Assembly (NCBI GenBank): GCA_018350325.1
Contig: JAEVLN010000015.1
Coordinates: forward strand, 2,315,289 to 2,379,288
Length of the DNA stretch: 64,000 nucleotides
DNA from: Globodera rostochiensis
Taxonomy: Eukaryota > Nematoda > Chromadorea > Rhabditida > Heteroderidae
Reading direction: 5' to 3'
Each line of letters begins with the position of its first letter. The stretch's first letter is position 1. Below are positions 38,127-61,327 of this stretch, piece by piece. The position numbers and the translations under genes are program-made. Under the pieces are notes generated by a model. It ran no database searches and was not told where the DNA came from. It saw only the letters and a program-made list of their open reading frames with translations.

Positions 38127-38753
38127 TCAGTTCGGAACTTTCTTCAACAACAAATAAATGTTCTTATCCTGCTCAAATCCATTCAAATTGTTCGCCTCTC
38201 CCTGAATCCGCATCAGAAGACCTCCAAATGAAGCATAAGCCGTCAACCGGCTCGTCTCCGCGCTTCCCTCGTCGTTTTCGATCAAATATATTTTTCCATA
38301 CATTACATACTCAAACATTCGAACTCGAGGGATGTTTTCGATCTGAATAGACATTAATCGAAAAGATCGCTAATTCTCTGTAAATTACGCAATTCCTCAA
38401 TATGGGACCGCCTGCTAGCCCCGGGCTGGTAACTTGCCATCGGTTAATTATTTATTTGGTTTTCTCCAATTCTTGGACGACCCAAACCCGCCCCTAAACT
38501 CCAATTTCACTAAATTTACCGATTTGTCGTATTCGCCCTCTTCTGTGAGTCCGTCGTCACGAATTGAAGTGCAAAGCATCAGCCGAAATTTGTCATTGAT
38601 GCCCAAGCTGTACAGCTGTGTGTTCACATCCAGAATAAGGTCCATTTTGAATGATTCGCTGTCGCAAAAAAGTCGGCTCACACGATCAAACTTTTTCCCC
38701 TCGGGGTCGATGTTCTTTACGGTGAACAAATCTTCGAAGTATAGGCTGTTCAT
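38127..38753 (-). CDS. rpb-8: RNA polymerase subunit RPB8 (ABC14.5)
   Basis: Two exons (38753-38520 and 38342-38127) sum to 450 nt, 149 residues (human 150). Shared small subunit of RNA polymerases I, II and III. Conserved blocks: [66 protein letters not shown]. The 177-nt intron contains an unrelated short open frame that I judged not to be an exon, since direct joining restores the family alignment. Arginyl-tRNA synthetase follows after 216 nt on the same strand, a plausible operon. Confidence 0.95.
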
Positions 38754-54175: not shown

Positions 54176-55336
54176 TCAATCCGGACTCAAGTGCTGCTTC
54201 CACTTCTGACTCTCCTGCCAAGGGTCCGTCTCCTTGACACGTTCCAGCATGTTCTTAACACATTTACAGTAAAAACTCAGGCAGTTTCAATCGATCTGTA
54301 CCTTTACGTTGTATTCGCCGGGTCCTTCAGCTTTTTCCAATTCATCCCAGGTTACCGGTGCTGCAACGGGCGCTCCCTTTTGATTTCGAGTCGAATAAGG
54401 CGCAATTGCAGTTGCCCCGCGGCTGTTTCGGAGATAATCAATGAAAATACGGTCCTTTCTGTAAATAAAAATGCAAAACATTTGGCTCTACAATTACCGT
54501 TTTGCTTTTGCCGATTGCGAAATGTATTTGTCCGGGTCGTCCTCTTCCATTTGCTTGGCAATCTCCTGAGTGAACTTGTGAACTAAATCCCAATTCGCCT
54601 TCGGAATCTTAACAAAGTTTGTAGTCAATTTATATGTTAATGCCATCGCACCAATGGCGCCACCACATGCACTCCCTTCCCGCCAGTTAACAACGGCAAA
54701 GAGTGCAGTCCATTCGATTGAAGCCGTTCTTTGAGTTCAACCGCCGCACTCTTCACGTGATCAAAGGTGACGCCTTCGCCCGGGTCGATGTCCATCACAA
54801 TTCGGTCCGGATGTTCCAAGTCACTGAAACGAGAACCCCAAATGTGGAATTCGAGCACGCCCATTTGGACACCGGCAATCAAAGAGGCAAGCCCAGTGAC
54901 ACACGCTTAAGTAGAAATAAAACATACAAATTATTGTAAATCATTGATAAAAACACCGTAAGAAGACTTTTGCCCAGTGGTTCTTGTTTCCTTCACATTA
55001 ACAAGTTTCATCGCGTCAGGAAAATTGCGACAGTGCTTCTCGTACCAACTTTTGCCCTTTCGACCTTCAGTCCGCCCGTCAGGGCATCGGACGACGCTGA
55101 GCAGGTGGTCATTCACCTGAATTCTAAAACCTCTGACCGATCGTATCAACAAAACATTCGAATAAAAATCGATGACATTTGTTTTAAAAACCCACTAAAG
55201 GAAGCATCCGATTCGCGACGTTCTGATAATAAACAGCCAAGTCTTTCTTAGTCAACTCCAACTCCGGGTAAAGCATTTTGTGTAGATTTGAAAATGCCAC
55301 GCCCTCAATAATATCGCGCTTCTCGGGCGTATCCAT
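54176..55336 (-). CDS. Standalone LigD-type DNA polymerase/primase domain (bacterial origin)
   Basis: Six exons (55336-55196, 55116-54957, 54905-54652, 54607-54498, 54458-54302, 54253-54176) sum to 900 nt, 299 residues, the length of a LigD polymerase domain. In bacteria LigD polymerase fills ends during Ku-dependent non-homologous end joining. Seen in order: FSNLHKMLYPELELTKKDLA, LLSVVRCPDG, SWYEKHCRNFPDAM (phosphate-binding region), VQMGVLEFHIWGSR, the metal-binding DxD in VMDIDPGEG, LLTGGKGVHVVAPL, DRIFIDYLRNSRGATAIAPY with the third catalytic Asp, and GAPVAAPVTWDELEKAEGPG. No ligase or nuclease domain is attached. Five short GT-AG introns (40-80 nt), intact frame and all recognisable active-site residues point to a functional nuclear gene acquired from bacteria; contamination is unlikely with introns and nematode neighbours. 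No mitochondrial presequence is evident. Confidence 0.92.
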
Positions 55337-56107: not shown

Positions 56108-57581
56108 ATGTCAACTTCAAATGACCCAGTGTCGGAATTTCTAGCCCGTGAACAAACTGCTCTTGCCGAGCTTGGCGACGACTTTGTGGCTGCGCCTCTG
56201 CCGCAGCCCGACAATGGTTTGGTTGCTTTGTCTTTTTTCTTTCTTATACTCATCCAAGACACCCGCCGACGGACGTTGTTTAAACGCCAGAATTTTTATT
56301 TTGTCAACCAAAACCTGGACTTAGAATAACATCGCCTTCGGCGAGTTGTCCTTTTTCGTCTAACGCTTAGTTAAAGACCCCCTCAAATGCTTAAAACATG
56401 GCGTGCTGTGAAGAATAGGCAAAAACACTACACGGACCAACCGATTTGCGGCACATAATGCCACAAATGTCCACTTGCCATAACACCTCCTCTTTCTTTA
56501 CTTCTAATCACTTTTATTTATTAAGAAGGGATTGTGCTGACTAACGGCGGCTCGGACTTTGGCTCCGATGTAAATTTAAATGCTTTTGACGCGAACGATG
56601 TTCACTCTCCCGTCAACGGAATAAACGGTCCGTTTTTTTCTAAAAAAATAGATTCGATTGGTGCTGTTGTAAAGAATTTAATTCGAATTGATTGAAAAGC
56701 ACTAATCAAAATTCCTATTTTATTTATGCATTTCTTATTTTTGGACTAATTTCTCAAATTTAAGGCTCTCTTCGCGGAAGTCCCGCATTTTCCCACTCTC
56801 ACAGCCAACAGCTCGAGAAAGAGCCCGAAAAAATTCGCAAATGGCGTGAACAGCAAAAGGAAATAATTGCGGAGAAAGGCATTTTTGTTTTGGGGACGCA
56901 CTCGTGGAACTGAATTTTGTGTTATTTTTTCTATCGTTTTTTAAAACAAATTTGGATTGTTTTTGGAGAAGTTCGGCGAAAATAGAGTATTGTTCTTTTC
57001 TTTTGGTTGCGTCCCTGGTTAATTTATTTTGGAAATAACGTCAACTTCACTTGAAGACAAAATTGAGGAGCAGAAGAAGGAGGATTTGCGTCAGCAAGCC
57101 AAAAAAGAGTTGGAACAATTTTATGCTCAACGCAAGGAGGAGTTGGAGCAGCGGAAGAAACTCAATCGGTCGGTTGGCTTTACCGTCGTTGGCCTTAGCG
57201 AGTCAAAAATTATGGCGACGTCCGCAAAAATTAATCTTTAAATAAATTTGAGCATTTATAAGTGTCGATTTCCTTCCCCTTTTGTTTGTTAATAATTTAG
57301 TTAATTTCAGTGAACGAGAAATCGCTTTGAAGGAGGACCAATCTTTGAACAATCAGCAAGAGTCCGCTGCCGTCGTTTGGGAGAGAGTGGCGCGGATGAT
57401 CGAAAGCGGTGGCGGGACGGGGGCGGCCATTTGCGGCACTGGCAAAGGTACGAAAGGCGCGCAAAGTGTCGCATCGGGCAAAGACACGTCGCGGATGAAG
57501 CAGCTGATTGTGTCTTACGCGAGGGGCGACCAAATGGGCGACAAAAGTCCGTCTCCGGACAAAGAGGCGGCGGACGCGTGA
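56108..57581 (+). CDS. clic-1: Clathrin light chain
   Basis: Five exons (56108-56216, 56526-56627, 56765-56878, 57057-57168, 57311-57581) sum to 708 nt, 235 residues. The light chain regulates clathrin lattice assembly on coated vesicles. The N-terminal acidic region (DPVSEFLAREQTALAELGDD) is followed by the heavy-chain-binding coiled coil (KIRKWREQQKEIIAEK; KKELEQFYAQRKEELEQRKK) and a C-terminal part (WERVARMIESG, then MKQLIVSYARGD, SPSPDKEAADA). Exon 3 ends AAAG and the intron begins GCATTT, a GC-AG intron by the best in-frame reading; a GT alternative would remove conserved coiled-coil residues. Confidence 0.93.
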
Positions 57582-58484: not shown

Positions 58485-61327
58485 ATGATTGTCGCCCATT
58501 ATTTGTCCATTCTGGTTGTGGCCGTACTTTTGGCACATCCTTCAAACGGAGAATTTCGTTCATATGACGGGTAAGGGGTGAGGGGGGGGGGTATCCGACT
58601 TAAACCGGGGCCTTCCGTCCACCTCCAACTCGATGCCCCCTCCCCTCCATGGTATCCGACTCAAACCGGTACCTTCCGCCCACCTCCAACTCGATGCCCC
58701 CTCCCCTCCATGGTATCCGACTCAAACCGGGACCTTCCGCCCACCTCCAACTCGATGCCCCCTCCCCTCCATGGTATCCGACTCAAACCGGGACCTTCCG
58801 CCCACCTCCAACTCGATGCCCTCTCCCCTCCATGGTATCCGACTCAAACCGGTACCTTCCGCCCACCTCCAACTCGATGCCCTCTCCCCTCCATGGTATC
58901 CGACTCAAACCGGTACCTTCCGCCCACCTCCAACTCGATGCCCCCTCCCCTCCATGGTATCCGACTCAAACCGGGACCTTCCGCCCACCTCCAACTCGAT
59001 GCCCCCTCCCCTCCATGGTATCCGACTCAAACCGGGACCTTCCGCCCACCTCCAACTCGATGCCCCCTCCCCTCCATGGTATCCGACTCAAACCGGGACC
59101 TTCCGCCCACCTCCAACTCGATGCCCCCTCCCCTCCATGGTATCTGACTCAAACCGGGACCTTCCGCCCACCTCCAACTCGATGCCCCCTCCCCTCCATG
59201 GTATCTGACTCAAACCGGGACCTTCCGCCCACCTCCAACTCGATGCCCCTTACCAGATATCGTCTCATCTTCGCATTGCCTTCCAACCCTTCGCATTTGT
59301 CGGCGCTTCGTAATTTCTCCAAACATTATGACGCCTCCGGACACGGGGGCGTTCAGTTTTGGAGACTTCGTCCTCAGTTGGGTGTGCCCTGCGAAATTTT
59401 AGCGGGTCCCGAAAGCAGGGAAGAGGTGAAGCAGTACCTGAAGCACAACCGCATTCCGCATTACACGGCTGTCAGAGACTTTGGAAAGTGAGGGATTGGG
59501 AGGGGGAGTGGGCTTGTTTGTTACTGACTATGATGCTTGCGTGTGATGAAGACAGATAATGAGGGAGAATGAGGCATGGAGAAGTCGGGACGAGCCGATG
59601 GAGCAGTACCAGCAGCTGGACGAGTTCGACTTGGGACGTTTTCACAGCTTTGATTCGGTCAGACGATCGCTTATAATTTTATAGCCCGAGGTTTTCAAAA
59701 TGTTAATTTTGTTGAACAAAAGGCTATTTCATTAAACGCCCAAAGTGTTCAGATCCTCCGTTACCTCCAAATGGTGGCACATTCACATCCGGATTTTGCT
59801 CGTTTTGGCTCCATCGGACGAACTTTCGAGGGCCTTCAATTGCCCATTCTGACGGTCAATCCTTTCGACTTGCCTCGCCTCCCTTTCAAATCCCCCCCCC
59901 CCCCCGCTCTTTTAGCTCGGATATTCCTCCCGAAACGATTCATCTGCTAAAAAGCCCTCTCTGCTGGTTGATGCGGGTATTCACGCCCGGGAATGGATCG
60001 CTCCTGCCGTGGCACTTCACTTTGTGAATGCGGTCAGTTCGGGTGGACTTGAAGTTGATCCCTCCCACCCGTCAACTTCAAGCTGATCAACGATCCCCAA
60101 TTCCATTCTTTACTCCATCACATCGATGTGCACGTAATTCCGGTGCTGAACCCCGATGGATACGTTTACTCGAGGGACAAAGACCGTGGGTCCAAAGCAG
60201 AGATGGCCAAAATTGCGGATTTCAGAGTTTTGAATAAAATTCTGTTTTGTGCCCACAAGCATTTGGCCTGCCCTGCCCGAAATGCTTAAAGTGACGGGCA
60301 CTGAATTCCGTTCCTTTAAGGGCTGTGGAGGGGCACTCGGTCGGGTCCACGGAAGAGCGATGCGCAGAAATGTCCGGGACGGGAGGAGGACGACGCGTTT
60401 TGCGTCGGAGCGGACCCCAACCGGAACTTCCCTTACCATTGGGTGAGTCTCGCTTTAGCGCATTTAACAGTTCTTCCCTCGACAGGACGAATCGGGGACC
60501 AGCCAATGTCCGTGCAGGTGATCGAACGGTGCTATTGGCTTATTCCTTCCCCCATTCAGTCAGGTGTTCAGTGGCGATCAGCCGCTCTCCGAGACGGAGT
60601 GTGCCGATCTCGCCAAATTCCTGCAAGACAACCGCGGCTCCCTAAAAGCGTATCTGACGCTGCACTCCTACGGCAACCTCATCATCCACACGTGGAACTT
60701 CAAGCCAAAAACGTATCCGGACAATGTGAAGGAATTGGTGGGTGAGAAATGTTGGCATTTTGATGCTTTTGAGCATTTATAATAAACGGACCAGAATATT
60801 TGAGCGATCGTTGGCAAAAAGGATGGCAGAAGCGATAGTCAAAGCGGGCGGGACGCAATACGAAGTTGGCACTGCTCCAGACATTCTCTGTAAGTGCGGC
60901 TAAATTAGGAAGTTGCACTGAGAACAGAACACTTTCGGTGCAGTCCGAATTTATTGGTTTTGTGTGGTCGTTGGGGCGAACGATCGCTGAGATTCAAATA
61001 TCCCTGGCGGCGCAAAGCGCCCAATCGTTTTGAAATTTCCTAAAGATTCGGCGGCCGGCGGAAGTGACGATTATGCGCAGAGTTTGGGCATCAAATACGT
61101 GTACACAATGGAATTGAGTTCCGGATATTTTGGGGGAAAATTCCGCGGATTTTTGTTTCCGGAGGAGCAAATAAACGACGAAGCGGCCAAAGTGGGACGG
61201 GCGGGCGGGCATTTGGGCATTTGCCTGCTTTTTCTTGCAGATTCTTCCCGGCATCCGAATACTCGCCGAAAAAGTGCGGGACGAGGCGCGCGACGGTCGG
61301 CGGAGGGTCGGAGGAAATTCCAATTAA
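58485..61327 (+). CDS. Secreted M14A metallocarboxypeptidase (procarboxypeptidase type)
   Basis: Twelve exons (58485-58570, 59257-59487, 59552-59657, 59753-59854, 59916-60032, 60083-60185, 60321-60442, 60486-60517, 60560-60737, 60805-60889, 61046-61191, 61241-61327) sum to 1395 nt, 464 residues. Signal peptide (LSILVVAVLLAHPSNG), activation pro-domain (about residues 30-110), then the zinc peptidase: VDAGIHAREWIAPAVALHFV (first zinc His and Glu), VIPVLNPDGYVYS, DPNRNFPYHW (substrate Asn-Arg), LTLHSYGNLIIHTW (third zinc His) and YVYTMELSSG (general-base Glu). All catalytic residues seen are intact. It would trim C-terminal residues of peptides outside the cell, for example in digestion. Intron 1 consists almost wholly of a 61-bp minisatellite. 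Subfamily specificity was not determined. Confidence 0.94.
58591..59256. repeat. 61-bp minisatellite, 11 units, filling a carboxypeptidase intron
   Basis: Units start at 58591 and every 61 bp after (58652, 58713 ... 59201), each reading GTATCCGACTCAAACCGG...CCTCCCCTCCATG with one or two variable sites. The last unit is cut at GATGCCCCTTACCAG, where it provides the 3' splice site (AG at 59255-59256). Since 61 is not a multiple of three, the long open frames of 189-280 codons here are repeat artefacts cycling through all phases. Confidence 0.95.

Follow-up and report, generated by a model that had tools for sequence, protein, structure and literature searches.

A LigD-type polymerase gene, apparently of bacterial origin, kept as an ordinary spliced gene in cyst nematodes

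Introduction

LigD-type polymerases add nucleotides at DNA breaks and gaps, prefer ribonucleotides and recognize a 5'-phosphate, and the genes of their partners in non-homologous end joining (NHEJ) are co-operonic in many prokaryotes, as described in sections of PMC4538821. Synapsis is promoted through loops 1 and 2 of these enzymes, and the portions of PMC3898472 consulted name, for the Mycobacterium enzyme, the loop 2 residues Lys217 and Arg220 and the apical loop 1 residues H83, R84 and S85 in end synapsis. In mycobacteria, ribonucleotide repair by LigD-type polymerases has been tied to stationary phase (sections of PMC5663958). Here we describe a gene of this type in the cyst nematode Globodera rostochiensis. 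It lies on the minus strand of a 64,000-nucleotide stretch of contig JAEVLN010000015.1 (assembly GCA_018350325.1, positions 2,315,289 to 2,379,288), which we call the window and whose positions are used throughout.

Cyst nematodes have acquired other bacterial genes, among them those for cellulases and PanC; 91% of 519 candidates in the G. rostochiensis genome paper have introns, and examples tabulated there concern cell walls, vitamins and nutrients (sections of PMC4901422). A search of the open-access literature found, among the papers listed and as judged from titles and opening lines of abstracts, none on a LigD-type protein in nematodes, and a term search of the main text, as far as consulted, of the plant-parasitic nematode genome papers PMC4901422, PMC6367775 and PMC7696266 returned no such gene. 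An initial annotation of the window, made from its letters alone, had likewise known of no description. That statement holds for the papers listed, but the sequences themselves are already public under automatic names ("ATP-dependent DNA ligase" in G. pallida; "hypothetical protein" or "DNA ligase D polymerase domain" in Heterodera schachtii). What is new here is the recognition of the gene and the evidence for its domestication.

Results

A LigD-type polymerase gene with five introns

The window gene is a LigD-type (Prim-PolD) primase-polymerase gene. In the model rebuilt from the sequence, the start codon ATG lies at 55336 and the stop codon TGA has its last base at 54176; the joined exons make 900 nucleotides including the stop, encoding 299 amino acids with no internal stop. 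The coordinates, six exons and 299 codons of the initial annotation are thus reproduced exactly. The five introns (79, 51, 44, 39 and 48 nucleotides) all run from GT to AG and have a GC content of 30%, versus 50% in the exons.

55196..55336, minus strand: exon 1, with the start codon at 55336; holds N17, K20 and K30, aligned with the 5'-phosphate pocket
55117..55195, minus strand: intron 1, 79 nucleotides, GTGGGT..TTCAG
54957..55116, minus strand: exon 2; holds the W71/Y72 aromatic pair
54906..54956, minus strand: intron 2, 51 nucleotides, GTGTTT..TTAAG
54652..54905, minus strand: exon 3; holds H121, the DxD motif (D139, D141) and the TGGKG block (174-178)
54608..54651, minus strand: intron 3, 44 nucleotides, GTGCGA..TTAAG; the match to the proteins P0142 and P0143 stops at this position
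54498..54607, minus strand: exon 4; holds the loop 2 residues K219 and R222
54459..54497, minus strand: intron 4, 39 nucleotides, GTAATT..TACAG
54302..54458, minus strand: exon 5; holds D229, the third catalytic Asp
54254..54301, minus strand: intron 5, 48 nucleotides, GTACAG..TTAAG
54176..54253, minus strand: exon 6, with the stop TGA at 54178-54176

The protein matches the family PF21686 in one continuous stretch over profile positions 1-254 of 254 (E 3.7e-83; 279.4 bits against a curated cut-off of 27.4) and scores 270.6 bits against TIGR02778 (cut-off 214.7), which bears out the domain identity first proposed; together with the two annotated nematode matches described below, this shows that the gene model is no product of chance. 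The catalytic D139, D141 and D229 and the preceding H121 are kept in all three nematode proteins (below) and in 108 of 108 rows called bacterial here, which comprise 67 genomic loci and 41 proteins, many of them presumed bacterial. The three aspartates and the phosphate-binding block had already been recognized in the initial annotation; by alignment, N17, K20 and K30 fall on the 5'-phosphate pocket of the LigD polymerase domain, which in the Mycobacterium tuberculosis enzyme we take to be N13, K16 and K26. K219 and R222 correspond to loop 2 Lys217 and Arg220 and are present in 108/108 rows, and the counterpart of Met215 is a serine.

A structure model of the G. pallida orthologue agrees with the fold of the LigD polymerase domain, and in it strands 81-86 and 94-100 flank a loop, a candidate for loop 1. 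Its last residue pairs with residue 303 of Prim-PolC (6SA0), so that Loop 3 of that enzyme (313-333) has no counterpart; we reject Prim-PolC as the identity of the protein on this ground. A vertically inherited eukaryotic PrimPol is rejected by family and fold: the window protein has no UL52 zinc domain, and neither Pri1 nor PrimPol is its nearest fold. The tree described below held no eukaryotic PrimPol rows and has no bearing on this question. Elsewhere in the host genome, a single stretch the size of an exon matches the UL52 zinc domain, which is typical of PrimPol (G000 C34:4311215-4311358, locus L091; 39.4 bits); this stretch may belong to a PrimPol gene or to a mobile element. The N terminus of the window protein shows no hydrophobic stretch like that of a signal peptide (mean hydropathy over 15 residues at most 0.71), which makes a secreted effector unlikely.

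Orthologues in cyst nematodes and a shared intron

The two top matches in a protein search are A0A183CAL4 of G. pallida (95% identity) and niasHS_010205 of H. schachtii (76%). Next come the proteins P0003 and P0005 at 60%; of the remaining matches among the best 120 of 2885, those named as bacterial lie at 44-51%. A profile built from the window protein and these four relatives again puts the same four database proteins first, after which the score falls from 472 to 421 bits at P0004 (best 120 of 3876). Nematode orthologues therefore lead the protein and profile searches that the initial annotation had proposed, and the named remainder, among the matches listed, is bacterial. A family search of the host genome (92.6 Mb, 80 contigs) found only the window gene. 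The G. pallida database protein (P0001) lacks DTP near its start and VK where exons 5 and 6 meet, which may reflect a difference in annotation.

The splice sites can be compared with other sequences at two points. The reading AC..GL.S, created by joining across intron 2, is also present by alignment in P0001, P0002, P0003 and P0005. Exon 3 used alone as query gave eight matches, including P0142 and P0143, which are 79 and 86 amino acids long on contigs of 1131 and 2792 bases and are identical to the core of window exon 3 at 57/71 and 54/71 residues, P0142 being identical to the H. schachtii protein at 70/71. Both diverge right after VAPV or VAPL, where intron 3 starts, and their next residue is V, which is what translation into a GT donor would give. 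Judged from these protein ends, P0142 and P0143 appear to share intron 3, which lends support to the splice site and to the presence of the intron before these lineages split.

Relatives and placement among bacteria

Patterns derived from the nematode alignment found 80 bacterial loci, five of which (L074, L082, L083, L084 and L086) were dropped because they had no usable frame. The maximum-likelihood tree was built from 67 of the 75 usable loci and 45 of 141 proteins; it has 113 rows, and its midpoint root falls between Bacillota and the rest. Because the loci are pattern-derived and protein matches were held to 0.55-1.75 times the query length, with the best 120 listed, the sampling of possible donors is skewed toward similar sequences. 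In this tree the window protein clusters with P0001, P0002, P0003 and P0005 (support 100/100), and this group, whose stem measures 0.59, is placed among alphaproteobacterial sequences.

The nearest named bacterial relatives are those of Mesorhizobium sp. J18 (L008, 52% identity) and Chelativorans sp. ZYF759 (L010, 50%). The former is a separate, stand-alone gene of 301 amino acids in a genome that also has two Ku domains and, on another contig, a second LigD-type polymerase in an 838-amino acid frame. The latter is the C-terminal part of an 845-amino acid LigD directly behind Ku, and in 65/75 usable loci the domain is part of an open frame longer than 800 amino acids. The donor could have been a stand-alone gene or a piece of a LigD. 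A profile search finds no ligase or LigD_N domain in the window protein, as the initial annotation had noted of the ligase and nuclease parts; a loss after transfer need not be assumed, since the J18 relative already stands alone. For the same reason we reject, as not needed, a full LigD that decayed after transfer, although, most relatives being full-length, the domain alone may have been transferred.

Among phage records, two without annotation that come from human faeces (MT836529.1 and MT838650.1) encode distant LigD-Pol-like proteins with ~32-33% identity to P0001. A scan of viral contigs gave 77 pattern matches, with no relative of the LigD-type gene among them.

Composition and constraint

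The GC content at third codon positions (GC3) is 0.55 in the LigD-type gene and 0.52 in the neighboring clathrin light chain gene (four exons), versus 0.74 and 0.84 in the bacterial relatives L008 and L010. Of the 53 alignment columns in which at least 95% of the 108 rows agree, 49 show no change in any of the three nematode proteins. The 73 differences between Globodera and Heterodera sit at sites that are variable in bacteria (entropy 2.02, versus 1.20 at the 220 unchanged sites; p 7e-10), and a similar pattern holds for the 13 differences between the window protein and that of G. pallida (p 0.013). These data suggest that the gene is under constraint, and the earlier claim of continuing selection stands to that extent, at the protein level.

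Genomic neighborhood

The gene lies inside a 2.53-Mb contig with nematode genes on either side. The initial annotation had placed it in a stretch reaching from RPB8 to a carboxypeptidase. Both are present, but the directly upstream neighbor is a clathrin light chain gene, beyond which lies the M14 carboxypeptidase, and RPB8 (window 38139-38735) is ~15 kb off on the opposite side.

56108..57581, plus strand: clathrin light chain, a neighboring host gene in divergent orientation; five-exon model with one GC-AG intron; PF01086, 91.1 bits

Splice donors are degenerate in both genes (GTGGGT, GTGTTT, GTGCGA, GTAATT and GTACAG in the LigD-type gene; GTTTGG, GTCCGT, GCATTT and GTCGGT in the modelled clathrin gene). 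The GC donor, GCATTT, belongs to intron 3 of the clathrin model (window 56879-57056), and GC-AG introns are reportedly frequent in Globodera (sections of PMC4901422). Just upstream of the carboxypeptidase propeptide, at window ~58575-59400, there is an array of similar, PPTSNSMPPPLHGIRLKPGPSAHLQLDA-like repeats in which three reading frames are open over long distances.

Repair genes of the host

The host genome has matches to the Ku_N and Ku domains on a contig other than that of the LigD-type gene. A ligase-like gene whose best match is DNA ligase 4 (G000 C7:2214925-2215555, locus L088) shares a contig with the LigD-type gene at a distance of ~154 kb, which is probably a coincidence. Exon-wise searches of the host genome detected neither LigD_N nor the palm and thumb domains of X-family polymerases. 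These negatives are weak because the same kind of search with a family A polymerase profile also found nothing, and a mitochondrial polymerase of that family is expected in any animal. Caenorhabditis elegans is not known to have X-family polymerases.

Discussion

We consider it probable that an ancestor of the cyst nematodes took the LigD-type gene from an alphaproteobacterium, likely one of the Hyphomicrobiales, and that the gene then gained introns and a host-like composition and was kept as a stand-alone gene. Bacterial origin, intron gain and retention, which the initial annotation had put forward in outline, are supported by the family scores, the tree, orthologues in two cyst nematodes and the apparently recurring intron 3.

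Several observations weigh against parts of this account, or against the role proposed below. The phylogeny places the group among alphaproteobacteria, but its union with a Phyllobacteriaceae-rich group (Mesorhizobium, Chelativorans, Nitratireductor, Aquamicrobium) has support of only 82/66, so that the donor family sought by the initial annotation is weakly indicated. Four of the 53 conserved columns (18, 71, 100 and 138) are altered in at least one nematode, including the first position of the aromatic pair, where F has become W in Globodera. In the phosphate pocket, only K30 is invariant (108/108); K20 is found in 63/108 rows and N17 in 18/108, and P0003 has H at position 17. The apical loop 1 residues of synapsis are not evidently conserved. 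Finally, the gene is not adjacent to Ku, the assignment of Ku80 is weak (the best PDB match is Ku80 at E 0.02, and the Ku_N frame has no PDB match), and binding to animal Ku cannot be taken for granted in a bacterial LigD polymerase.

Four other explanations have to be considered. First, P0003 and P0005 may be bacterial, in which case the donor would be an unsampled lineage near them and the transfer younger than the group of five suggests. Each is an intronless frame on a short contig, the two pair only weakly in the tree (95/28), and P0003 is 55.8% identical to the Mesorhizobium J18 protein and 59-61% to the nematode proteins. Yet A101 and C102 (0/108 bacterial rows) and N78 and N275 (1/108 each) are common to P0003, P0005 and the three nematode proteins, and the stem of the five is long. 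Among 397 Hyphomicrobiales genomes, moreover, 138 match P0003 at 1e-60, the best (Mesorhizobium J18) at 56% and the others listed at no more than 51%, and all 615 matching plasmid records lie below 60%. We therefore doubt this version of the transfer while giving it some weight.

Second, the protein could fill short gaps in base excision repair in the manner of Prim-PolC, replacing missing X-family polymerases and taking no part in end joining. The failure to detect X-family domains would fit, but, as noted above, that negative is weak. Furthermore, Loop 3 of Prim-PolC, as delimited in sections of PMC7442782, lies beyond the end of the nematode model, and the closest relatives in bacteria are for the most part LigD proteins. 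This role seems to us rather improbable.

Third, the gene could be a decaying passenger without function, as its short introns and weak-looking donors (GTGCGA, GTACAG) might suggest. The donors of the clathrin model are no less degenerate, however, and the frame is open, the catalytic residues are intact, ~76% identity remains between Globodera and Heterodera with differences clustered at bacterially variable sites, and intron 3 is apparently common to two other sequences; decay is thus very unlikely. Lastly, although the named relatives outside nematodes are, among the matches listed, bacterial, contamination or an assembly join can be dismissed given the 2.53-Mb contig with its nematode genes, the five introns, the host-like GC3 and the presence of the gene in G. 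pallida and H. schachtii data.

If the gene was indeed acquired and retained, its product would probably process DNA ends ahead of ligation by the host, as follows. Through N17, K20 and K30 the enzyme would bind a recessed 5'-phosphate where DNA is broken or gapped, with the aromatic pair W71/Y72 positioning the templating base. It would then add a few nucleotides, using two metals held by D139, D141 and D229, and preferably ribonucleotides, a preference that we infer from the family. A host ligase, most likely the putative DNA ligase 4 of this genome, which also appears to carry a Ku80-like gene on another contig, would close the nick. The most speculative step concerns the benefit, which may be repair in long-dormant, non-replicating encysted juveniles, where the supply of deoxynucleotides (dNTPs) would be low; the idea is suggested by the mycobacterial stationary-phase role, of which it would be a conceivable animal counterpart. 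We propose only tentatively such a hybrid end joining, in which animal Ku and ligase 4 work with a bacterial LigD polymerase and ribonucleotide patching replaces X-family polymerases for upkeep in dormant cyst stages.

Cyst nematodes seem to have borrowed a bacterial repair enzyme and kept it as an ordinary spliced gene. A repair polymerase with an intact active site, lodged between genes of the host, would show that import and retention also extend to enzymes of genome maintenance. It also raises the question of whether a bacterial end-joining polymerase works with animal Ku and ligase 4, and whether ribonucleotides or a signature at joints can be found in these genomes. Were the hybrid pathway real, this would be an animal that has borrowed part of bacterial NHEJ. 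Should the gene matter to the worm, it could offer a point of attack for pest control; all named relatives among the matches listed come from nematodes or bacteria, in searches not aimed specifically at plants and vertebrates.

Compared with known systems, the nematode protein is closest in kind to Prim-PolD of Pseudomonas aeruginosa (2FAO) and M. tuberculosis (2IRU), with which it shares the whole domain, the DxD motif and third Asp, the His, the GGKG block, the loop 2 Lys and Arg, and the fold. Unlike them, it is encoded in an animal chromosome by a gene with five introns, without a ligase or phosphoesterase domain and with no adjacent Ku, and it does not amount to the full bacterial LigD complex of polymerase, phosphoesterase and ligase with Ku. 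The archaeal NHEJ polymerase of Methanocella paludicola (5DMU) is 34% identical to it, and, in contrast to the situation in many prokaryotes, the putative partner genes of the nematode polymerase are not adjacent to it. Its bacterial relatives L008 and L010 differ in being intronless, in their GC3 (0.74 and 0.84) and in residing in genomes that carry bacterial Ku. Prim-PolC of Mycobacterium smegmatis (6SA0) has a C-terminal Loop 3 for short gaps, before which the nematode protein stops. Finally, the gene shares a bacterial origin with the cyst-nematode transfers described in sections of PMC4901422, but differs from examples in Table 2 of that paper that concern cell walls, vitamins and nutrient use in that its product has no signal-peptide-like N terminus and belongs to DNA repair.
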